38,262 bases of DNA from Planctomycetota bacterium (GTDB lineage: Bacteria; Planctomycetota; Phycisphaerae; Phycisphaerales; SM1A02): contig VGYB01000018.1 of the NCBI GenBank assembly GCA_016873115.1, forward strand, positions 1 to 38,262, in the 5' to 3' direction. The translations under genes and the position numbers were made by a program. This document shows positions 7,367 through 36,462 of the stretch, piece after piece. Position 1 is the stretch's first letter. Each line of letters begins with the position of its first letter. The notes beneath the pieces were generated by a model that had not been told where the DNA came from, did not search any database, and was given only the letters and a program-made list of their open reading frames with translations.

Positions 7367-7506
7367 ATGACACGGCGCGCGTACTCCGGCGATGCATTCA
7401 GGATAGAAACTGCTGGCTTCCCCCTTCCGAAGTACAGGAATGAAGATTGATGTGCCGATATGCAGAACCTCGGATCCACTCAATGCCGAACCAGAAGGTC
7501 ACTGCC

Positions 7507-8016
7507 ATGAACATCAACCAGATCGCGTCCATGGGTGTCGCAGCCACCCTCCTGTCGGGTCCTTGCCTTGCCGACGGCGTCGTCAAGGGACAGACCGCCA
7601 CCAAGAAGGTCGTGGTCGAAGAGACCTCGTCCGACATCGTGGAAGTCACCGTGCTCGAGAAGACGGCACTGAACACCTGGGTCGTCTCGGATGACCTCAC
7701 CAACGAAACCAATGACGCGGAGCAGACCACCCCAGCGGCCGGGACCATCACCGATTGCAATGACAACGGAATCGATGATGCGGCCGACATCGCTGCCGGT
7801 ACCGCCGATGACATCGACGGCGATGGCACGCCCGACTCATGCGAAATCGCCGCTGGTGATGTGAACCTGAACGGCATCGTCAACAGCGCCGATGTCAACA
7901 TTGTGCTCGGCTGGTGGGGCTTGGACTACTCACCCACGAGCGACTGCAACACTGATGGCACGGTTGACGGCCATGACTTGGCCATGGTGCTCGCCGCCTT
8001 CGGCAGCACGCTCTGA
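7507..8016 (+). CDS. Small secreted protein with Ca-binding thrombospondin-type and dockerin-like repeats
   Basis: This is a 169-residue exported protein. Residues 1-22 form a signal peptide, with likely cleavage after CLA. Residues about 83-113 (DCNDNGIDDAADI, then DIDGDGTPDSCE) form Asp/Asn-rich calcium loops of thrombospondin type-3 style. Two dockerin-like repeats follow: GDVNLNGIVNSADVNIVLG at 117-135 and DCNTDGTVDGHDLAMVLAAF near 146-165. The protein ends right after them. The ATG at 7507 is preferred over upstream in-frame starts because the signal peptide begins there and AGAAGG lies eight bases upstream. Dockerins normally bind cohesins in surface complexes; here the partner is unknown, and the repeat may serve as a calcium-folded anchor. 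Confidence 0.8.
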   Translation: MNINQIASMGVAATLLSGPCLADGVVKGQTATKKVVVEETSSDIVEVTVLEKTALNTWVVSDDLTNETNDAEQTTPAAGTITDCNDNGIDDAADIAAGTADDIDGDGTPDSCEIAAGDVNLNGIVNSADVNIVLGWWGLDYSPTSDCNTDGTVDGHDLAMVLAAFGSTL

Positions 8017-8056
8017 GCCATCGAGCGGCGACCTGCCCAGACCATCAAACCATGGC

Positions 8057-8086
8057 AGGGCGCACCACTCGGTGCGCCCTCTTTCG
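8057..8086 (+). terminator. Rho-independent terminator
   Basis: AGGGCGCACC (8057-8066) and GGTGCGCCCT (8071-8080) form a perfect 10-bp stem with an ACTC loop, followed by CTTTCGTT. It lies 41 bases after the dockerin-like gene. Confidence 0.8.
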
Positions 8087-8142
8087 TTCAACCGGAGATT
8101 TGGCGCGCACCCTGAGGTGCACCCCGCAACGGATGTCCGCGC

Positions 8143-9129
8143 TCAGGGCGCCCCGGGGACGGCGTTGGCGATGTTGCCCGGGAGCAGCCGGTTCCGGAAG
8201 TAGAGCCAATCGGCGTGCACGCCCGCCGGCTCGGTGAGATCCGTATTCGGCGGGATGGACTTCATGAGCTCGACCAGCGCCGGATCCTGCATCTCGTGGG
8301 CCGTTGAACTGCCATCCACATTCGAATGCGTCACGACCACACCGTCCCACAAGGCTGGCCAGTCGTACCACAGCGCCTGCGTTGGATCGATGATCCACCC
8401 GCCGTAGTTCGAGTAGAGCCCCTGCTGCTTGGCCTCCACGATCGAGCACAAGGTCATGGATGGCTTCTGGACCCGGGACATCGCCGTGGTGTCGAACGCA
8501 CTGCAATCGCCCTCGCCGAGGGCAGACTGCCACTGAGCGACCGGTGTGTTGACGATCCAATCATCGGGAACCTGGACACCGACGAACCCATTCAGTGAGT
8601 AACTGCGCAGACGATCCTGCTTGTCCAAGGGACTGCGGTAGGCATCCAGGGTGCCCAGATACGGCCACAACCGCCCACGCGTGATCGCGTACTCCGTCTC
8701 CTGACGCGTGTCTCCGCCGGGGCCACCGGTGAAGTACACCGCGCCAGGCACACCGACCACGGGACCTTGGACCATCATCACCCAGCAATGGAACGACTCG
8801 GCATCATTCGCAATGGCGGCGGCAGCCGTCGGCCAGTACAGCAGTGGGCAGGCACTCCCGATGTCGAAGCCGCTCCCTGACACACCAGGGTCTGGCTTCT
8901 CTGTCCGGGGACTGACCAGCCGACCAGCCTGATCGGTGGCGTAGGCGGCACACGCCAAGGCGATCTGCCGCTGCTTGGACTGGCATCCGACGCTCCGAGC
9001 CGTGGCCTGGACCTTCTGGATCGAAACCACCAGTAGCGCAAGCAACACGCTGATGATGGCAATCACCACCAACAGTTCCGTCAGGGAGAAGGCTCTTTGA
9101 GAATGATGCCTTTGGTTCACTTCGGCCAT
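8143..9129 (-). CDS. Prepilin-like protein, second family (distal gene of pair)
   Basis: This is a 328-residue type IV pilin-like protein. A short leader ends RA and is followed by the helix FSLTELLVVIAIISVLLALL, with Glu18 as Glu5 of the mature form. Next comes SKQRQIALACAAYATDQAGR, shared with its upstream neighbour. Near the C-terminus SNVDGSSTAHEM replaces the FFDGHV motif of the first array. It ends PGNIANAVPGAP. The start is uncertain: ATG 9129 lies 13 bases after the stop of the upstream gene, while an in-frame ATG at 9162 would overlap that gene by 20 bases. It is almost certainly co-transcribed with the upstream paralog. The function as minor pilin or pseudopilin is inferred. Confidence 0.85.
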   Translation of the reverse strand: MAEVNQRHHSQRAFSLTELLVVIAIISVLLALLVVSIQKVQATARSVGCQSKQRQIALACAAYATDQAGRLVSPRTEKPDPGVSGSGFDIGSACPLLYWPTAAAAIANDAESFHCWVMMVQGPVVGVPGAVYFTGGPGGDTRQETEYAITRGRLWPYLGTLDAYRSPLDKQDRLRSYSLNGFVGVQVPDDWIVNTPVAQWQSALGEGDCSAFDTTAMSRVQKPSMTLCSIVEAKQQGLYSNYGGWIIDPTQALWYDWPALWDGVVVTHSNVDGSSTAHEMQDPALVELMKSIPPNTDLTEPAGVHADWLYFRNRLLPGNIANAVPGAP

Positions 9130-22949: not shown

Positions 22950-22979
22950 ACTCTAGGTTTCCAAGGGCCCGCCGTGCAA
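22950..22979 (-). promoter_or_regulatory. Putative promoter of the M28 peptidase unit
   Basis: On the minus strand TTGCAC (22979-22974) and TAGAGT (22955-22950) are 18 bases apart and lie 49 nt before the ATG, leaving a leader that contains the GGAAGG ribosome binding site. Confidence 0.35.
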
Positions 22980-22999
22980 GGGATCGAGGCTGTCAGGCC

Positions 23000-23005
23000 T
23001 ATACT
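23000..23005 (+). promoter_or_regulatory. Putative -10 hexamer TATACT for gcvP
   Basis: TATACT matches TATAAT at five of six bases and lies 31 nt before the gcvP ATG. No clear -35 box, riboswitch fold or Shine-Dalgarno is visible in the 136-base divergent region. Confidence 0.45.
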
Positions 23006-23036
23006 TTCCGCTCACCCAGCCAGCCTCCACCCCACC

Positions 23037-25967
<2,931 letters not shown>

Positions 25968-26461: not shown

Positions 26462-29428
26462 TCACACCTCGGCGTGCTCGGCCACGCCCTGGATGCGGGC
26501 GATCGCGCCACGAAGCCCATCGGCACGCATGGCCACGTTGACCACTGGGCTCTGGAGCAGGCTCACGATGTGCACACGCAGGTAGGACGGTGCCGCCGCA
26601 AGGGTGGCAGCCTGACGCACAGCCATCGCATCGAGCGCGGCTGGATCCATCTCGCTGAGGAGCGGAGTGGTGTTCGTCAGGCGCACCTCGATGTCCGCCG
26701 CATACGCATCGAGCTCGCTCGGCACATCGAACGGGAACGAGCGTGCGGTCGCATGGGCCACGTCGGCCATCTGCTTCTTGCCGACCTTGGGATTGAGCAG
26801 ACCGGTGAGCAGCATCACGAAGCGCTCACGGTGGTCGGCGAACGCGCCCAGGATCTCCTCGTGCGACGGGCCTTCACTGCGGAACGCGATCGACTCGCGG
26901 TCGTCACTGCGGTTGCAGCTGATCTCGAGCTTCCAGTCCCCAGCGCCCACTGCGATCTGTCGGGGGTCGATCAGGGCGACCGTGCGCGCACCGCCGAAGG
27001 TATCGGGTGCTTCGCTGTCGCGTCCCGAGACGAGATAGGCCTTCGACTCGGGCGTGAAGACGCCGCGCTCGAAGAGCCGTGACACGCGCGAGCCATCGGC
27101 GCCGTGTGCCACCAGGTTCCACTCGACCGCTGCAGGTACCGGGTCGTCATCCGAGGGAAGCCACACCACCTCGAAGAGCGGATGGCTTGAACCTGCATAG
27201 CGACGCACATAGAAGCGGCCACGACCACGCGGGCGTTCCACGCCCGGGGTCAGTGCCTCGAGCATGCGCTGCACGGTGTCGCGTTCATCCTGGGTGAAGC
27301 CGGACGGATCGCGCAGCACCCGCGAGCCGATCTCGAACAGCTTGGCAAGCACGGCGGGTTCGGCGCTCGTCTGGCCCGCTGGCGGATAGAGGAAGCGGAA
27401 GGCATCCAAGTGCACCTTGCCCTTGCTCAGGCCGCTGTCGACGAGGGCCTGCGCGATCAGTGCGCTGTCGGCACCGCCGACCATGCGCTCATCGAGTGCG
27501 CGTCGAGCGCCTGTCACATCACCGGTCGCCACATAGGTGGCGCAGAGTCCCTTGAGTGCCTCATGCGCGGGGCGGGTCTCGTTGATCGCCTCACGCACGG
27601 CATCCGGGAAGTTGAAGAACTTCTGCGTCGAGAGCGCATCGATCGCCGCGGCGAACTCACGGCGTGCGTGGTCGAACCGGGCTCGTGCAAGTTCGAGCAT
27701 GCCGCGGGCAAGTTCCAACAGGCCGGGTGCCGCACCGGTGCGCATGGAGGTGTGCTGTTCGGCAGCATCGAGGTTGCCCTGCCCGATTTCGAGGATCGCG
27801 AGGAACGGCCGCGCCACGCCGTCCACGCGGTCGGAACCTGAAACCGCGCGCATGAGGTGCGTTCGGGCCATGCCGATGAGGTCAGGATCGTGCGTGGCCG
27901 CGAGCCGCAGGCCGCGTGAGAGATCCGCCAATCCTTCGCCTTCGACCAGGTCGAGCGCTTCGCGGCGGATCGCCTCGGACTTGGTGGCGAGGTCGGCATC
28001 GTTCATGCAGTGCGGCTGCATCGCGACGGCTGCACGCAGCACGGTGCGGCTCCAGACCGGATCACGATTGCTCCATCCGTGCCACTCGGTGGCGACCGTG
28101 AGCGCCGGACGCCATTGCGATGCCATGATCAGTCGTGAAACAGCACGATCGACATCGCCATCAGGCACCATGCCGGCTTCGGCACGGCGCAGGAGTTCCC
28201 ACTCGATCTTGTGCACGAAGTGGGCGACCTTGCCATGGTCGCCGCGCTTCTCGTAGGCAGCGGTCAAGAGCTGCGAGGCCGTCAGCGCCGCAGCTCGCAC
28301 CTCTTCATTGGCCGAGTGCAGTGAGAGTCGGTTGAGCTCCGTCTCGACCTCCTCGAAACGCTGTTCGCGGGCACGCAGCAGCGCGATCGCATCACCGGCA
28401 ACGCCACCCACGCCGACGAGTTCCTCCGCGCGCTTCAGGTCATCGGTCTGGGCACGCTCGGCAAGCAGGCGCACGAGACCAGATCGCTGGAGGTGGCCGT
28501 CGGAACCGCGCGTCGACAGTGCCTGCTCATACAGGCCCTTGGCAAAGGCGAAAAGGCTGTCACTGCGGTGGCGGCGCCACTCCTTGGCCACACTTGATGC
28601 CGTGATCGGGCCGGCGGCGGCCACCGGCGAGGTCGAGGGCGTGCTTGAACCGACCGGAATCATGATCGGCGCAGCAGGAATGGTGGCGGTTGCCGGCACC
28701 ACTGCACGCGGCAGCACGGGAGCAGGAACCGGTGCTGGGGCGGATGCAGCAGCGATCGGCGCAGCGGGAATGGCCGCCGCCGGGACCACGGGCATCGGCG
28801 CCACTGGAGTCACCGGCGCAACCGCGGCAGGCACGACCGGAGTTGGTGTCGCCGCCACTGGGGCAATCACAGGCACAGTTGGCGCGACGGCCATCGGCTT
28901 GGGTGCCTCGACCGGATCGAGGTCAGTCAGATCAAGGAGCCCAGGAAGATCAAAGTCCGCGTCGCTCGTCACCGGCGCACCCATCATGGGCTTGGTGGAA
29001 CCCAGGTCGTCATCGCCAAATGGATCCATCGACGACGATGCCGCAGGATCGGTCATCGGCGTCGTGATCGGCATGCTTGCCGGACGCGCACCGCCCGGCG
29101 TACGAGGACCTGGCTTCCTTTCTCCAGCGGAGGTCTGGGCTGTCGGCTTCCGGGACGCTGCACCCTTCGACGCGGTGCCGCCCTCGCTCTTCTCGCCGCG
29201 CATCCAGAGCACGGCGCCGACGATGAGTGCGATCGCGATCGCGCCGACGGCGATGCCCGCGGCGAGCACGATCGGGTCGTCGTAGGGCAAGCCCATGATC
29301 GTGCCAGCGGCCTCTTCACCAGCCGACGGATCAGCAGCCGGTGCGGGGTCCTGCGCGTGGGCGATCGCCACGAAAACAAGGCTCGAGCAGAAGGTGGCGG
29401 AGTGCAACAACGAAGCGCGGATGGCCAT
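26462..29428 (-). CDS. Large membrane-anchored protein with Pro/Ala/Val linker and helical repeat region, unknown function
   Basis: This is a 988-residue protein. A signal peptide (cleavage near AHAQ, residue 26) is followed by a membrane helix at about 52-75 (PIVLAAGIAVGAIAIALIVG). The chain from about 80 to 295 is low-complexity, with long Pro/Ala/Val/Thr runs such as VAPVTPVAPMPVVPAA. From about residue 300 (EWRRHRSDSLFAFAKGLYEQ) to 700 it is rich in Ala/Leu/Arg helices resembling tetratricopeptide repeats. The last third has a mixed alpha/beta look with GAGDWKLEISCNR. I recognise no family. The start at 29428 has GAAGGGA upstream. The overall design suggests a surface scaffold reaching across the periplasm. 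It lies downstream of mgtE on the same strand but 162 bases away. Confidence 0.72.
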   Translation of the reverse strand: MAIRASLLHSATFCSSLVFVAIAHAQDPAPAADPSAGEEAAGTIMGLPYDDPIVLAAGIAVGAIAIALIVGAVLWMRGEKSEGGTASKGAASRKPTAQTSAGERKPGPRTPGGARPASMPITTPMTDPAASSSMDPFGDDDLGSTKPMMGAPVTSDADFDLPGLLDLTDLDPVEAPKPMAVAPTVPVIAPVAATPTPVVPAAVAPVTPVAPMPVVPAAAIPAAPIAAASAPAPVPAPVLPRAVVPATATIPAAPIMIPVGSSTPSTSPVAAAGPITASSVAKEWRRHRSDSLFAFAKGLYEQALSTRGSDGHLQRSGLVRLLAERAQTDDLKRAEELVGVGGVAGDAIALLRAREQRFEEVETELNRLSLHSANEEVRAAALTASQLLTAAYEKRGDHGKVAHFVHKIEWELLRRAEAGMVPDGDVDRAVSRLIMASQWRPALTVATEWHGWSNRDPVWSRTVLRAAVAMQPHCMNDADLATKSEAIRREALDLVEGEGLADLSRGLRLAATHDPDLIGMARTHLMRAVSGSDRVDGVARPFLAILEIGQGNLDAAEQHTSMRTGAAPGLLELARGMLELARARFDHARREFAAAIDALSTQKFFNFPDAVREAINETRPAHEALKGLCATYVATGDVTGARRALDERMVGGADSALIAQALVDSGLSKGKVHLDAFRFLYPPAGQTSAEPAVLAKLFEIGSRVLRDPSGFTQDERDTVQRMLEALTPGVERPRGRGRFYVRRYAGSSHPLFEVVWLPSDDDPVPAAVEWNLVAHGADGSRVSRLFERGVFTPESKAYLVSGRDSEAPDTFGGARTVALIDPRQIAVGAGDWKLEISCNRSDDRESIAFRSEGPSHEEILGAFADHRERFVMLLTGLLNPKVGKKQMADVAHATARSFPFDVPSELDAYAADIEVRLTNTTPLLSEMDPAALDAMAVRQAATLAAAPSYLRVHIVSLLQSPVVNVAMRADGLRGAIARIQGVAEHAEV

Positions 29429-29590
29429 GTCTAAATCCCTTCGGATGGTCGATCGAACAGCGGGAGCGCAAGGTACGGCCCTGCGCGTCCCACTGCAATT
29501 ACCGCGCCATTGCGCCCGATGGTTATCGGTTAGCCGATCCGGAGGCCCCACCCCGGAACGGTCGGCCCGAGTGCCGGGTGCGGAGTCCGC

Positions 29591-31101: not shown

Positions 31102-31881
31102 ATGGATCGGCTCATCAGCCATGAGGTGCTCGACGATGGAGCGCTGCACCGGATCACGCTCCGCGACGATACGCGGCGCAATGCACTCAGCCAGGCGATG
31201 TTCGATGACCTCGATGCAGCGCTCGCTGCCGTCACGACAGCCGTGGCGCGAAGGCAGGCGGCATCCTGCGTCCTCCTTTCGGCGACCGGGCGCGCGTTCT
31301 GCAGCGGCTTCGACCTCGGCGCCTGTGTCGCCGATCCCTCGATGATGGGCTCCTTCCTCCAGAGGCTTTCCGCGGCAGTGCGCTGCCTGCGTTCGCTGCC
31401 CTGCCCGGTCGTGGCAGCCGTGCAAGGTCCCGCGCTCGCGGGTGGATGCGCGCTCGTCACGGCCTGCGATGTCGTGATTGCCGGACCGGCTGCCCGATTC
31501 GCCTACCCCGTGCATCGCATCGGATTGAGCCCGGCGATCAGCCTGCCCACGCTGCGCGGCCACACCGGTGGCGGTGCCCGAACGGTCGCCCTTGAGCCTG
31601 AACCGCTCGATGCGGCTGCAGCGCGCGCACAGGGCCTGGTGCACGAGATCGTTGACGATCCGACCGCCCTGGATGCTCGCGCCCTGGCCGTGTCGCGCCA
31701 GCTGCTCTCCAAGGGTCCACAGGCCATGGCCAGCATCAAGCGCTGGATGAATGCGCATGATGGTTCGTGCGACCTGGCCGCGCTCGATGCCACGCTCGCG
31801 GCCAGCGTGGCCACGGGTTCGAGCGATGAATCGAGTGCGATGCTCGCGGCCACCTGGGCCGCGATGCAGAAGCCACGCTGA
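31102..31881 (+). CDS. Crotonase-fold protein lacking both hydratase glutamates
   Basis: This 259-residue member of the enoyl-CoA hydratase/isomerase superfamily has the usual length. The oxyanion-hole segments are present (AFCSGFDLGA at 66-74 and GPALAGGCALVTACD around 109-123). The two catalytic Glu of standard hydratases are replaced by Ala117 (in GGCAL) and Val137 (in YPVHRIG), with normal spacing, so it is unlikely to hydrate enoyl-CoA and may be an isomerase, hydrolase or other crotonase type. The start could instead be GTG 31087, which has GGGGAG ten bases upstream. Its TGA shares one base with the ATG of the next gene, so they are coupled. It diverges from mgtE. Confidence 0.85.
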   Translation: MDRLISHEVLDDGALHRITLRDDTRRNALSQAMFDDLDAALAAVTTAVARRQAASCVLLSATGRAFCSGFDLGACVADPSMMGSFLQRLSAAVRCLRSLPCPVVAAVQGPALAGGCALVTACDVVIAGPAARFAYPVHRIGLSPAISLPTLRGHTGGGARTVALEPEPLDAAAARAQGLVHEIVDDPTALDARALAVSRQLLSKGPQAMASIKRWMNAHDGSCDLAALDATLAASVATGSSDESSAMLAATWAAMQKPR

Positions 31882-32657
31882 TGGACCCGAAGCTCTATCA
31901 CCGCCCGCGGATCGAATGGTGGCAACTGCGCCGTCGATGGTGCCGTTGGCGCGACGACCTGCAGCATCATGCTGCGCCAATCCGGCGCAGCCATTGGCAG
32001 AGCGTGGTCCTGGCATCGATGTGGGGTTCGCTCGTGATCGCCCCCGTCGTGGCAATCGTCGGTCATCTTGCCTTCGGGCGCACCACGATCGAGCCGCTCG
32101 AGGCCCGCTTCCACCGGCTCGAGCATGGTCGCTGGGTCGATGCCAGTGGCCGCGACCTCGACGACCCGACGCAACCTGCGGTGAATCTGGAGCATGAGTC
32201 ATTCATCGAGACAGTCGGATGCACCGTCACCATCGAACGACGACGATCGGGATGGCCCGCGGCGAGCGGTGCATCGGCGACCATCACGACCGTCTTGAAG
32301 CCCTCGTTTCAACTCGATCCATCAACGGCGCCCTTGCAGGGTCTCGACTTGGATCGTTCGCGGAAGTGGATGCTTGCACACAACAACATCGACCTGGCAG
32401 GAATCACCGGCGAAGGTTCGATCTCGATCGTTGGCTTCGCGGTCAATGCACTGGTCGCCTGGCCAATCGTGTTCGCGCTCGTCTGGCTCGGCGCGCTCGT
32501 GAGGCGCGGGGTCCAACTCTTCGTCTGGCGCCGCCGCGCGCGGATCGAGGCCGGGCGCGCCGACCAAGGGCTCTGCCCGGGCTGCGGCCATGTCATCGAC
32601 CGCGCAGGCTTCAGCGACCGATGCCCGGAGTGCGGCTACTTCCTGCATCGCCGCTGA
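31881..32657 (+). CDS. Membrane protein with C-terminal zinc ribbon
   Basis: This 258-residue protein has a basic, Trp-rich N-terminus and a membrane helix at about 42-66. An extracytoplasmic domain of about 120 residues follows, then a second helix (about 183-208), and finally a zinc ribbon at the end (CPGCG...CPECG, Cys232, 235, 248, 251). I do not recognise a family. It starts at the ATG that overlaps the TGA of the crotonase gene before it. It mirrors the zinc-ribbon protein at 20128-20934, where the ribbon is N-terminal. A link to acyl-CoA metabolism is suggested only by position. Confidence 0.7.
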   Translation: MDPKLYHRPRIEWWQLRRRWCRWRDDLQHHAAPIRRSHWQSVVLASMWGSLVIAPVVAIVGHLAFGRTTIEPLEARFHRLEHGRWVDASGRDLDDPTQPAVNLEHESFIETVGCTVTIERRRSGWPAASGASATITTVLKPSFQLDPSTAPLQGLDLDRSRKWMLAHNNIDLAGITGEGSISIVGFAVNALVAWPIVFALVWLGALVRRGVQLFVWRRRARIEAGRADQGLCPGCGHVIDRAGFSDRCPECGYFLHRR

Positions 32658-32672
32658 TCGCGTCGCCGCGGC

Positions 32673-32678
32673 TACGCT
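32673..32678 (+). promoter_or_regulatory. Putative -10 hexamer TACGCT, leaderless start for the second crotonase gene
   Basis: GGCTACGCT at 32670-32678 ends 7 nt before ATG 32686, inside the 28-base gap after the zinc-ribbon gene. No Shine-Dalgarno is visible. Confidence 0.45.
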
Positions 32679-32685
32679 CTTGGCC

Positions 32686-33432
32686 ATGTCCACCCTCGTT
32701 TCGCTCGACATCACCGATGGCATCGCCCGCGTCTGCATGCGCCGCCCCGAGGCGCGCAACGCTCTCTCCAGGGACCTCATCACGCAGCTGCGCTCGACGA
32801 TCGAAGCGCTGCAGTCGCGCGCGGATGTCCGCGTGGTCATCCTGGAAGGCGACGGCAAGAGCTTCTGCGCCGGCATGGACCTGAAGGCCGTGGCGACCGA
32901 TCCGGTCGCGATGGGAGACATGCTGCGAGCGCTTGCCGAAACCAGCCTGGCGATACGAAAATTGCCGATTCCCACGATTGCCAAGGTCCAGGGTGCCGCG
33001 ATCGGTGGCGGGTGCGGACTGATGGTCGTCTGCGACTTTGGTGTGACGCACCCCGAAGCCAAGGTCGGCTACCCAGAGGTCGACCTGGGGATCTGCCCGG
33101 CGGTCGTGGCGCCCTGGCTCGTCAAGAAAATCGGCGCCGGCCCGGCGCGCGCGATGCTGCTCTTGGGCGGGACCATGAGCGGCGCCGAGGGATACGCCAA
33201 GGGCATCGCCAGCCACTGCGTGCCGCTCGATCAACTCGAATCAGCCACGATGGCACTGGCCACCGGACTGGCCAAGGGCGGACCACTCGCCATCCGTGAG
33301 ACGAAACGATGGTTATCGGTTCTTGATGGATCAAATGACGATGCCGCTATCCGGGAGGCAGCGGAGATCAGCGCGAGGATCATCCAGGGCGGTGAGGCGC
33401 AGGAGCGACTAGCCAAGCTGTGGCGTTCCTGA
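32686..33432 (+). CDS. Enoyl-CoA hydratase/isomerase family protein (LiuC-like)
   Basis: This 248-residue crotonase has KSFCAGMDLKA and AAIGGGCGLMVVCD forming the oxyanion hole. The first catalytic Glu is replaced by Gly111, while the second is kept as Glu131 in YPEVDLGICPAVVAPWLVKK. The PAVVAP.LV.KIG stretch resembles methylglutaconyl-CoA hydratase-like proteins of leucine catabolism, which also keep one Glu. That fits with the leucine-type dehydrogenase and acyl-CoA dehydrogenase downstream, but the substrate remains an inference. It is preceded by its own TACGCT box. Confidence 0.88.
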   Translation: MSTLVSLDITDGIARVCMRRPEARNALSRDLITQLRSTIEALQSRADVRVVILEGDGKSFCAGMDLKAVATDPVAMGDMLRALAETSLAIRKLPIPTIAKVQGAAIGGGCGLMVVCDFGVTHPEAKVGYPEVDLGICPAVVAPWLVKKIGAGPARAMLLLGGTMSGAEGYAKGIASHCVPLDQLESATMALATGLAKGGPLAIRETKRWLSVLDGSNDDAAIREAAEISARIIQGGEAQERLAKLWRS

Positions 33433-33522
33433 TCTGCACTTTCGTTTGAAATCACGACTTATCGATACACGATCGACACAGATGCAGTCACAATCGACCT
33501 TGAAAGGCCAGGAGCATCGATC

Positions 33523-34404
33523 ATGCCAACATCTGCGCTGAACATCACCGAGTTTGGCGATGGGATCGTCTCGCTCACGCTGCAGATCAACCCTGAGAAG
33601 CCCCGTGGAGGGGTCGTTGTCTTGGATGCGTGGCTGATCGATCAGATCCATATCGCGATGGATCGCGTCGAATCGATGCACGATCTCAGCGGTTTCATCC
33701 TCGATAGTGCCTCAGAGCGCGTGTTTGTGGCTGGGGCCGACTTGGCCGAGATCGATGCCATGGATGACGGCGCGCTGCACGGGTACCTCAAGCGCGCCGC
33801 CGATGCGTTCTGGCGCATTGCGGCGCTCCCCTGCCCGAGTGCCGCCATCATCGGCAAGGCTGCGCTCGGCGGCGGTCTTGAGATTGCCATGCACTGCGAC
33901 GGCCTCATCGGGGTCGCCGCAGCCGAGGGCGCCAAACCGTATCGGGTCGGCCTGCCTGAAGCGGGGCTCGGGATTTGCCCGGGTTGGGGCGGCACGCAGT
34001 GTTTGCCAGCGCGCATCGATCCCCTGACCGCCATCAAGGCCACGGCGACTGGTGAGACCTTCGCGAGCAACACCCTGCCACCATGCCTCTTCAATGCCGT
34101 AGCACCCTCGGCCGAGACCGCCCGGGCCACCGCCACAGCCTGGCTCCGTAGCCAATCCAAGCAGCACCCGATCCGCTGCGTCCGCGGGGATCAGGGGCTG
34201 GCGCTTCCCGGGGTGGCCGAAGCACTTGCCCAAGCGCGGAAGGAACTCCCGCAAACCCCCGCCGCGATGGCCGTCTGCGACCTCGTTCAGTTCGGGCTCG
34301 ACCGTGGCTGGGGCGCTGCGTGCGAACGCGAGCGCCAGACACTCGTCGGCCTTCGCCATACGCCGCAGGCCCGCGAGAAACTGGCTGCGTTCCTCAAGAA
34401 GTGA
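33523..34404 (+). CDS. Enoyl-CoA hydratase-like protein (FadB/FadJ N-domain-like)
   Basis: This 293-residue crotonase keeps both catalytic Glu: Glu120 in GGGLEIAMHCD and Glu146 in GLPEAGLGICPGWGGTQ, as in the hydratase half of FadB/FadJ. The oxyanion segment is VFVAGADLAEID. The spacing between the two Glu is six residues longer than usual. The C-terminal 100 residues after LPARI differ from short hydratases and hold no NAD-binding dehydrogenase domain, so this is not a fused FadB. It starts with AGGAG upstream and lies after a 90-base A/T-richer gap. It is the only one of the three crotonases here with the full standard active site. Confidence 0.88.
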   Translation: MPTSALNITEFGDGIVSLTLQINPEKPRGGVVVLDAWLIDQIHIAMDRVESMHDLSGFILDSASERVFVAGADLAEIDAMDDGALHGYLKRAADAFWRIAALPCPSAAIIGKAALGGGLEIAMHCDGLIGVAAAEGAKPYRVGLPEAGLGICPGWGGTQCLPARIDPLTAIKATATGETFASNTLPPCLFNAVAPSAETARATATAWLRSQSKQHPIRCVRGDQGLALPGVAEALAQARKELPQTPAAMAVCDLVQFGLDRGWGAACERERQTLVGLRHTPQAREKLAAFLKK

Positions 34405-34518: not shown

Positions 34519-36462
34519 ATGAGCTCCACCAACCTTGCCGACATCAAGGGCATCGCTGAACGAGACCGCAAGCAGATCGAGGCCGCCCAGGAAATGCTCG
34601 GGCCGGATCCCTCGGCGATGGGAGCCATCAAGAACAACTTCTGGGGCAACTTCCGCGAGGAACTCATGTTCCCCTATCCCGAGGGAAGCGCCGACGAGAC
34701 CGCGCGCTGCGACCAGTTGCTCGCTGACCTCGATCGCTACCTGCGCACCGATCACCCCGCGCACCTGATCGACCAGGAACAGCAGATCCCCGACTGGGTG
34801 ATCAAGCGCCTGTTCGCGCTCGGTGTGCTCGGCATGACGGTGCCCAAGGAGTTCGGCGGCGGCGGCTTCGGCATCACCAGCTACAACCGCGCACTCGAGC
34901 GCATCGGCCGCAGTTGTGGTTCGACGGCCGTGCTCGTGAGCGCGCACCAGTCGATCGGCTGCAAGGCCGTGATGCTCTTCGGCACCGACGAGCAGAAGGC
35001 GCGCTTCCTGCCCCGCATGGCAAAGGACACGCTCAGCGCCTTCTGCCTCAGCGAACCCAATGTGGGTTGCGACGCGGGCGGCCAGGAAACCCGCTGCGAG
35101 CTTTCTGCCGACGGCACGCACTACCTCCTCAACGGCGAGAAGAAGTGGGCGACCAGCGGCGCGCTGAGCGGCCTCTTCACCGTCATGGCCAAGCAGAAGG
35201 TCACCGACCCAAAGACCGGCAAGCAAAAGGACATCGTCACGGCGCTGATCTGCACGCCCGACATGGAAGGTGTCGACATCTTCAGCCGAAACCGCTCCAA
35301 GTGCGGCATCCGCGGCACCTGGCAGGCGCGCATCCGACTGACCAATGTGAAGGTCCCTGCGGCCAACCTGCTCGCGAAGGAAGGCCAGGGCTTCAAGATC
35401 GCCATGACGTGCCTGAACTACGGCCGCTGCACACTCAGTGCAGGCATGCTCGGTGGTGCGGGCTTTGCCTACGAGCAGGCGCTCAAGTGGGCCAAGTACC
35501 GCCACCAGTTCGATCGTCCGCTGGCGGACTTCGACCTCTGCAAGGAGAAGCTCGCGCGCATGGCCGGCTACATCTACGTGATGGACGCCATGCTCTACAT
35601 GACCACCGGCTTCCTCGACCGCCACGATGACGACATCATGGTCGAGACCGCGATGTGCAAGGTCTTCTGCAGCGAGATGGGCTACCGCACCGTGAACGAT
35701 GCGCTCCAGATCATGGGCGGCGAGTCGTACATGACGGAGAACTCGGTCGAGCGCATCTGGCGCGACAGCCGAATCAACATCATCGTCGAGGGTGCCAACG
35801 AGGTCATGCATTCCTTCATCTGGGCCTACGGCGGCAAGCAGCTGGGCGAGTGGATGAATGGCATCAAGGGCAGCCCCTTCTCCAACCTCGGCAGCGCCAT
35901 GCAGATCGGCTCGGAACTCTTCCTTGGCTTCCGCCGTGGCATGCCGACCTTCGCCTGCCGGAACCCTCGCATCACGCGTCACCTCGATGAGTGCATGATG
36001 CGCATCCGCGAGTTCAGCCACCAGGTCAAGATGATGTTCAAGGAGCACGAGGAAGGCATCGTCACCGCCCAGACCATCCAGTCGCGCCTGGCGATGGGTG
36101 CGCTCTGGATCCACGCCAGCCTCTGCGCGCTGTCGAAGTTCGAGCGCAACATGCGCCGTGGCCTCGAGGGCCGCGAGCTCGAGCACGAGGCCGCGATCGT
36201 CGATCACTTCATCGCCTTCGCGGGCGAGCAATTCGATGCGGAGCTGCGGGCACTGCGGGTGAACTGCGACACCACCATGAAGCGTGCCGCAGAGGCCGTG
36301 CTCACCTGGGCCGACAGCCTGCCGAATGCCGACTATGTGCTCCCCGAGCGCACGCCGGTCGTTGCGGTGCGTGGCACCGGCAAGAAGCCTGACCAGTCGA
36401 ACATCCCGCAGTTCGGCACTGGCAGTGTCTTCGCCGGCACCAAGGTGGCCAACGGCGCCTGA
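34519..36462 (+). CDS. Acyl-CoA dehydrogenase with C-terminal extension (VLCAD/ACAD9-like)
   Basis: This 647-residue FAD enzyme oxidises acyl-CoA to enoyl-CoA. The N-terminal helical domain is followed by the beta domain, with FCLSEPNVGCDAGG and YLLNGEKKWATSG, and the C-terminal helical domain with YRHQFDRPLADFDL. The catalytic Glu lies in NIIVEGANEVMHS and the FAD-binding ALQIMGGESYM stretch precedes it. About 180 extra residues follow the core, as in the very-long-chain/ACAD9 group. AAGGAT six bases before the ATG fixes the start. Together with the crotonases upstream and the amino acid dehydrogenase downstream, it supports fatty-acid or branched-chain acyl-CoA oxidation. Confidence 0.94.
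   Translation: MSSTNLADIKGIAERDRKQIEAAQEMLGPDPSAMGAIKNNFWGNFREELMFPYPEGSADETARCDQLLADLDRYLRTDHPAHLIDQEQQIPDWVIKRLFALGVLGMTVPKEFGGGGFGITSYNRALERIGRSCGSTAVLVSAHQSIGCKAVMLFGTDEQKARFLPRMAKDTLSAFCLSEPNVGCDAGGQETRCELSADGTHYLLNGEKKWATSGALSGLFTVMAKQKVTDPKTGKQKDIVTALICTPDMEGVDIFSRNRSKCGIRGTWQARIRLTNVKVPAANLLAKEGQGFKIAMTCLNYGRCTLSAGMLGGAGFAYEQALKWAKYRHQFDRPLADFDLCKEKLARMAGYIYVMDAMLYMTTGFLDRHDDDIMVETAMCKVFCSEMGYRTVNDALQIMGGESYMTENSVERIWRDSRINIIVEGANEVMHSFIWAYGGKQLGEWMNGIKGSPFSNLGSAMQIGSELFLGFRRGMPTFACRNPRITRHLDECMMRIREFSHQVKMMFKEHEEGIVTAQTIQSRLAMGALWIHASLCALSKFERNMRRGLEGRELEHEAAIVDHFIAFAGEQFDAELRALRVNCDTTMKRAAEAVLTWADSLPNADYVLPERTPVVAVRGTGKKPDQSNIPQFGTGSVFAGTKVANGA

Follow-up and report, generated by a model that had tools for sequence, protein, structure and literature searches.

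The window analyzed here, a 38,262-nucleotide stretch of contig VGYB01000018.1 (assembly GCA_016873115.1) from a Planctomycetota bacterium of the order Phycisphaerales, contains three genes encoding crotonase superfamily proteins, designated C1, C2, and C3, and an acyl-CoA dehydrogenase gene that follows them. At the two positions that hold the catalytic glutamates (Glu) of enoyl-CoA hydratases, C1 has alanine and valine, C2 has glycine and one Glu, and C3 has Glu twice. These six residues, called previously in a sequence-only reading of the window, and all coordinates of the three genes were confirmed by residue reading. As judged from its sequences, the clade to which C1 belongs is real and conserved, a line of crotonases without the catalytic Glu whose parent, the C2 lineage, can be identified. 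By analogy with known crotonases, C1 is most likely an acyl-CoA-binding accessory protein with little or no catalysis, an assignment made tentatively and with slightly less than even confidence. Among the titles listed in the literature searches, no name or paper turned up for the C1 branch or for the C1/C2 pair.

The glutamate-free C1 clade and its origin

A tree of 203 crotonases was built with FastTree and rooted on MenB after near-identical rows were thinned and X residues were removed, and the labels C1 and C2 were given by profile score. All 107 C1-scored rows, some of which come from a scan with a motif containing Ala117, form one clade (support, 0.989) with Ala/Val at the two hydratase positions in 95 rows, Ala/Thr in 9, and Ala/Ala in 3, and with Glu in none. 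The sister of this clade is a group of 69 made up of C2 proteins together with five others in which Pro or Ala replaces the C2 Glu, and these five come from genomes in which C1 was not found. Outside C1 plus C2 lie 17 outgroup rows, all Gly/Glu; 14 of them come from different classes of the phylum, and the remaining 3 belong to the family of the window. The support values of 0.924 for the C1-plus-C2 group and 0.916 for the C2 group make the branching good, not absolute. Three rows scored as C2 are not Gly/Glu: one is of the C3 type (L104, positions 7436 to 8374), and two belong to the non-Glu group (L165 and L177). L104 was dropped whole, taking one true C2 along, and the C2 counts out of 63 given below are therefore one short. 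ScpB of Escherichia coli, a methylmalonyl-CoA decarboxylase, was placed outside the part of the tree that holds C1, C2, and the outgroup. A second crotonase tandem was observed in relatives at L179 (665 to 2259) and L180 (1444 to 3422), with a Glu/Glu protein that groups with PaaF and a Ser/Phe protein that groups with PaaG.

Because C1 is sister to the C2 group and the outgroup rows are Gly/Glu, C1 appears to have derived from C2 by duplication; most simply, Gly/Glu would be the ancestral state, and C1, a paralogue and in many genera a neighbor of C2, would be a tandem duplicate. Once duplicated, and before three planctomycete families of the order diverged, C1 lost the Glu at position 137, exchanged Gly117 for Ala, and fixed new residues at the catalytic motifs (Phe70, Ala113, Ala117, Val125, Val/Thr137, and Ser143). 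The crotonase fold was kept, as was the oxyanion-hole Gly-Gly motif, and the altered state has been retained since. The set of three crotonases had been read as a functional gradient from a non-hydratase to a standard hydratase. The phylogeny does recover C1 as a distinct clade without Glu, but it contains no gradient, with C1 the sister of C2 and C3 of a different subfamily (FadB/FadJ). The gradient was rejected because a duplication together with a FadB/FadJ-type neighbor of another subfamily explains the set.

A C1 search at an E value of 1e-10 in 151 genomes of the same family returned some crotonase match in 146, and 40 loci from 40 genomes, found by overall C1 similarity and picked mostly at one per genus, were fetched. 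In the family alignment of the window with 39 loci (L051 was excluded for a residue X in its sequence), Ala117 is invariant in all 40 C1 proteins and Val137 is at least 90% conserved, and the relatives within the family share the C1 signature AGGCA...GYPVHRIG.SPAV. Gly/Glu occurs in 26 of 26 aligned C2 proteins and Glu/Glu in 19 of 19 aligned C3 proteins. C2 is present in 25 of the 40 family loci, and C1, C2, C3, and the dehydrogenase are all present in 18 (plus the window), with C1-C2-C3-dehydrogenase as the recurrent gene order in relatives. The C1/C2 pair was also found in two other families of the same order (f2 and f5); for two more families of this order (f3 and f4), the 11 genomes listed gave no C2 match at an E value of 1e-55. 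In a second collection of 80 loci (L075 to L154), Ala117 is present in 80 of 80 and neither C1 position has Glu; the motif of that scan contained Ala117, which biases the Ala counts, and the 80/80 is therefore not independent evidence for this residue. A local mutation was rejected as the source of the C1 state, as the altered site spans many genera. Three C1-bearing loci, L075, L091, and L101, are titled Bacteroidia, Limnohabitans, and Chitinophaga, metagenome-bin organism labels that look wrong for a gene seen elsewhere in planctomycete records.

Sequence comparison within the genus indicates that C1 is a maintained gene under purifying selection. By Nei-Gojobori counts on pairs that are not mutually independent, the median ratio of nonsynonymous to synonymous substitution rates (dN/dS) is 0.099 for C1 (36 pairs) versus 0.031 for C2 (27 of 28 pairs usable). 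Six columns (70, 113, 117, 125, 137, and 143) are at least 85% conserved in C1 and have another consensus in C2, and, by their place in the sequence, they fall within the oxyanion and catalytic motifs or next to them. Ala113 and Ala117 are 100% conserved in the C1 clade. Ser143 is found in 106 of 107 C1 proteins, in 5 of 5 non-Glu C2 relatives, and in 5 of 63 C2 proteins, that is, in 111 of 112 sequences without Glu137 versus 5 of 63 with it. Other acidic residues that might occupy the C1 site were sought at the sequence level, and at a threshold of at least 70%, the C1 clade has no conserved Asp or Glu, nor any His, beyond those conserved also in C2. Without Glu at either position, C1 is unable to use the standard two-glutamate hydratase chemistry. 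A standard two-Glu enoyl-CoA hydratase was rejected as an identity for C1, since both Glu are missing (Ala in 107/107; Val, Thr, or Ala at the second position). C1 looks like a real non-hydratase relative and not a decaying gene, because the altered site is kept across many genera beside C2. The proposal of the sequence-only reading that the first crotonase is a non-hydratase is thus borne out by a clade in which all 107 rows lack Glu and which appears to be under purifying selection.

The structure of C1 was predicted with AlphaFold2, giving a confident crotonase fold (mean pLDDT, 95.4; pTM, 0.92). The best PDB match of the model has a Z score of 30.2 and an rmsd of 2.1 over 236 residues, and the top solved structures are crotonases with Z scores of ~30. 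No single closest relative is named because, among the matches listed, many crotonases tie in structural scores. The predicted fold and the ECH_1 profile match together place C1 in the crotonase superfamily.

Possible identities of C2 and C3 and the carboxylase link

In the 2.36-Mb, 96% complete genome of the window, four ECH_1 matches were found, three of which are C1, C2, and C3 and the fourth of which is MenB. C2 is a possible 3-methylglutaconyl-CoA hydratase of leucine catabolism and, with the other crotonases of the genome assigned, the best candidate for this enzyme. The best curated model for C2 is PRK07468 (161.1 bits versus a cutoff of 350), and no named subfamily model was reached; C2 scores far below the curated cutoffs of the 25 NCBIfam models listed and is below that for gamma-carboxygeranoyl-CoA hydratase, PRK05674 (133.6 bits versus 426). 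Among its best matches are the Gly/Glu crotonases 3i47 and 1uiy, which we take to be from Legionella and Thermus, respectively, and the isohexenylglutaconyl-CoA hydratase 4zu2 (E values, 1.9e-34, 3e-30, and 5e-29, respectively). In alignments, these three proteins share with C2 the Gly/Glu arrangement of the two hydratase positions.

The β subunit of methylcrotonyl-CoA carboxylase, scored as present by a match at an E value of 1e-120, occurs in 76 of the 79 genomes in which Glu was read in C2 and in none of the 9 with a non-Glu C2. Seven C1 genomes have no carboxylase match (G020, G038, G078, G094, G100, G134, and G142), and three of these (G038, G078, and G134) are the exceptions among the 79. 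The C2 relatives with Pro or Ala for Glu are at L165, L166, L171 to L174, L176, L177, and L269, in nine genomes in which carboxylase β was not found. The carboxyltransferase of the window genome, on contig 24, has methylcrotonyl-CoA carboxylase β (3u9r; E value, 6.8e-123) as its best PDB match, followed by AccD1 (4q0g; 1.8e-122). The same genome has one clear thiolase and one 3-hydroxyacyl-CoA dehydrogenase, the latter beside a methylmalonyl-CoA mutase family gene. Both subunits (B and A) of topoisomerase VI, which is unusual in a bacterium, are encoded a few kilobases from the carboxylase gene on contig 24 (L243, 2151 to 5450).

The full length of C3 aligns with the hydratase portion at the N terminus of FadB (profile positions 7 to 295 of 717), and C3 keeps both Glu, as does the FadB/FadJ hydratase domain. 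It differs from FadB/FadJ in standing alone without the dehydrogenase domain, scoring 98 bits against a full-length cutoff of 870. C3 matches enoyl-CoA hydratase profiles only, and the genome gave a single 3HCDH_N match, on contig 4. C3 and the acyl-CoA dehydrogenase would together serve β-oxidation.

Candidate roles of C1

As an accessory protein, C1 would use its oxyanion hole to bind, but not hydrate, a short or branched acyl-CoA and would assist the C2 branch, either by holding or delivering the acyl-CoA or in a mixed assembly with C2, in the way that EchA6 is thought to carry acyl-CoA; it would be dispensable in some lineages that keep C2. EchA6 of Mycobacterium tuberculosis lacks the residues for hydratase activity and is a predicted acyl-CoA shuttle, according to PMC5964476. 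C1 and EchA6 share the crotonase fold and the lack of the hydratase catalytic residues. EchA6 is among the structural matches of the C1 model, at ranks 38 (3he2) and 40 and 49 (5dtw) of the Foldseek list, with others ahead. It is 25 to 27% identical to C1, no closer than many other crotonases, and has different partners. Precedents for a mixed assembly are the PaaF-PaaG complex, in which two different crotonases are joined, and BoxC, whose second crotonase domain has no active center, both as described in PMC4498308.

The distribution of the two genes fits an association of C1 with C2. C1 presence was scored in many genomes by profile score and position rather than by gene reading, and the C2 residue was read as Glu in 79 genomes and as non-Glu in 9, with the remainder counted as Glu or not read; the genome sets were transcribed by hand, and those of the 98 good-quality genomes agree with computed tallies. 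Among these 98, C1 occurs in 82, all of which have C2 (Glu or residue not read). The 16 good genomes without C1 comprise 8 with C2 (Glu or not read), 5 with a non-Glu C2 relative, and 3 in which neither was found. C1 without C2 was recorded in six genomes (G047, G066, G105, G119, G129, and G149) that are 65 to 82% complete, and G020, which fails the quality filter at 7% contamination, has C1 on a 3.3-kb contig together with a non-Glu C2. The earlier suggestion that C1 might serve as a regulatory partner agrees with this co-occurrence, but a tree-distance test on the 19 loci that have all four genes showed no C1-C2 link stronger than that of C1 and C3. The partial r was 0.20 for C1-C2, 0.28 for C1-C3, and 0.09 for C1-dehydrogenase, and it was 0.64 for C2-dehydrogenase, 0.52 for C3-dehydrogenase, and −0.12 for C2-C3 in the same test.

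Several observations weigh against an accessory role beside C2 in leucine catabolism. The invariant active-site substitutions of C1 fit a catalyst of different chemistry as well as they fit a binder. Because the C1-C2 value does not exceed that of C1-C3, the tree-distance test gave no sign of a C1-C2 complex, and the case for such a complex was considered weak. In several genera, C1 adjoins a gene of a family that includes a PF02667 member (short-chain fatty acid transporter; the family was identified by one member, in L068), with no C2 in the fetched stretch, which points to a substrate rather than C2 as the partner. C2 could, by analogy, instead be an isomerase, as a one-glutamate enzyme: PaaG is described in PMC4498308 as having only one catalytic Glu, like isomerases. 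A single evolutionary event may underlie the carboxylase link, because of the nine genomes with a non-Glu C2, the five represented in the tree fall together in one group. Three good genomes (G078, G100, and G142) carry C1 and C2 with no carboxylase match at the threshold used, and no other leucine-pathway gene was seen among the scanned neighbors of the carboxylase gene in the window genome.

Unlikely, though the best placed of the alternatives, is that C1 is a glutamate-free enzyme, most plausibly a decarboxylase of a β-carboxyl-enoyl-CoA such as 3-methylglutaconyl-CoA. C2 would then interconvert 3-hydroxy-3-methylglutaryl-CoA (HMG-CoA) and 3-methylglutaconyl-CoA, and C1 would release CO2 to give 3-methylcrotonyl-CoA, like the pairs PksH/PksI and ECH1/ECH2 of polyketide β-branching. 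As PMC7501309 describes, PksH, which acts on an HMG thioester, relies on one glutamate (Glu137), with Asp68 as the proposed proton donor; PksI decarboxylates with a single catalytic residue, His230, for which CurF has a Lys; and PksH and PksI also act on CoA thioesters. In the virginiamycin cassette, these dehydratase and decarboxylase roles are filled by ECH1 and ECH2 (PMC10006238). The C2/C1 pairing of a one-Glu with a zero-Glu crotonase resembles PksH/PksI, the carboxylase is present in 115 of 122 family genomes scored C1 positive, and the pocket positions of C1 are fixed and not drifting. A counterpart to His230 of PksI might be sought in His138, which adjoins the second Glu position and is at least 90% conserved in the family of the window, but in the wider C1 clade it falls below 70%, with Val, Thr, Leu, or another residue in its place, and there is no further conserved His; this comparison was made by sequence alone. 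As for a Lys like that of CurF, Lys213 is conserved in C1 but is common to C2, and the C1-specific Lys204 (Gly in most C2) and Arg139 (Asp in most C2) reach only 79% and 74%, respectively. With the carboxylase present, moreover, the decarboxylase route would be a futile cycle, and PksH and PksI formed no mixed complexes according to PMC7501309.

A role of C1 in the use of short-chain acids or acetoacetate seems distinctly unlikely; C1 might then be, for instance, an acyl-CoA hydrolase or isomerase that acts through water and Ser143 and is linked to the transporter. The transporter-family gene occurs in 12 of 40 C1 loci, and in 11 of these (L043, L046, L048, L054, L065, L066, L068 to L071, and L074), it is directly upstream of C1 on the same strand, overlapping it or within ~110 bases; the near-invariance of Ser143 in C1 is also consistent with such a role. 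However, no such gene appeared in the fetched stretches of the remaining 28 loci, none adjoins C1 in the window, and the transporter substrate is uncertain, because the member tested scored 398 bits, below the TIGR00366 cutoff of 575.75.

It is more doubtful still that C1 acts without any catalytic Glu on a CoA thioester of the leucine pathway, as a decarboxylase or by other C-C or thioester cleavage, through the oxyanion hole and the conserved Ser143 region. If true, a tandem-duplicated one-glutamate hydratase would have given this planctomycete branch a crotonase-only shortcut between HMG-CoA and 3-methylcrotonyl-CoA. Finally, that C1 is a relic duplicate, inactive and in slow decay, retained by chance or through its position in an operon, is very improbable. 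In its favor, dN/dS is ~3 times that of C2, and 13 of the 151 family genomes keep C2 with no C1 found; against it, the ratio is near 0.1, the frames are open over many genera, and A113 and A117 are invariant and S143 near-invariant at ~40% identity.

Locus organization and significance

The features of the cluster are listed in Table 1.

Table 1. Coordinates of the crotonase cluster and of its hydratase-position codons in the window
Feature	Position	Strand	Description
C1 crotonase-fold protein	31102..31881	+	259 aa, ATG 31102; Ala117/Val137; Pfam ECH_1 and residue reading
Ala117 codon (gcg) of C1	31450..31452	+	First hydratase Glu position
Val137 codon (gtg) of C1	31510..31512	+	Second hydratase Glu position
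258-aa open reading frame between C1 and C2	31881..32657	+	C-terminal CxxC...CxxC zinc-ribbon-like end; hydrophobic segments judged by eye
C2 crotonase	32686..33432	+	248 aa, ATG 32686; Gly111 gga 33016-33018, Glu131 gag 33076-33078
C3 stand-alone FadB/FadJ-type enoyl-CoA hydratase	33523..34404	+	293 aa; Glu120 gag 33880-33882, Glu146 gaa 33958-33960
Acyl-CoA dehydrogenase, ACAD9/ACADV-type C-terminal domain	34519..36462	+	647 aa; after C3, next gene of the conserved cluster

The ECH_1 (PF00378) scores are 114.5 bits for C1, 157.5 for C2, and 61.3 for C3, against a cutoff of 27. C1 is separated from C2 by the 258-aa open reading frame (ORF), whose start codon (ATG) shares 1 base with the C1 stop and which gave no match in the Pfam scan. 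C1-adjacent ORFs that resemble it were found in relatives (L035, 4740 to 5606; L071, 5498 to 6316; L074, 7739 to 8584). Of the 40 family loci, 17 have an ORF with a CxxC...CxxC end, and in 15 of these it is downstream of C1 on the same strand. Upstream of C1 in the window lies an MgtE gene on the opposite strand. Two further minus-strand ORFs of the window, at 26462 to 29551 (1,029 aa) and 22953 to 25790 (945 aa), have no Pfam match at an E value of 0.001.

To our knowledge, crotonases without the catalytic Glu are known as individual cases, for which a catalytic ancestor can usually not be clearly pointed out. C1, in contrast, still has the ancestor-like paralogue C2 as its neighbor in many genera, its substitutions are fixed and few in number, and the presence and absence of C1 and C2 are largely nested across the 151 genomes; the pair therefore offers a clean natural experiment on a hydratase turning into something else. 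The label "enoyl-CoA hydratase" is unsuitable for C1-type genes on sequence alone, and the presence of C1 flags a possible extra step or regulator in the use of leucine or short-chain acids by planctomycetes.

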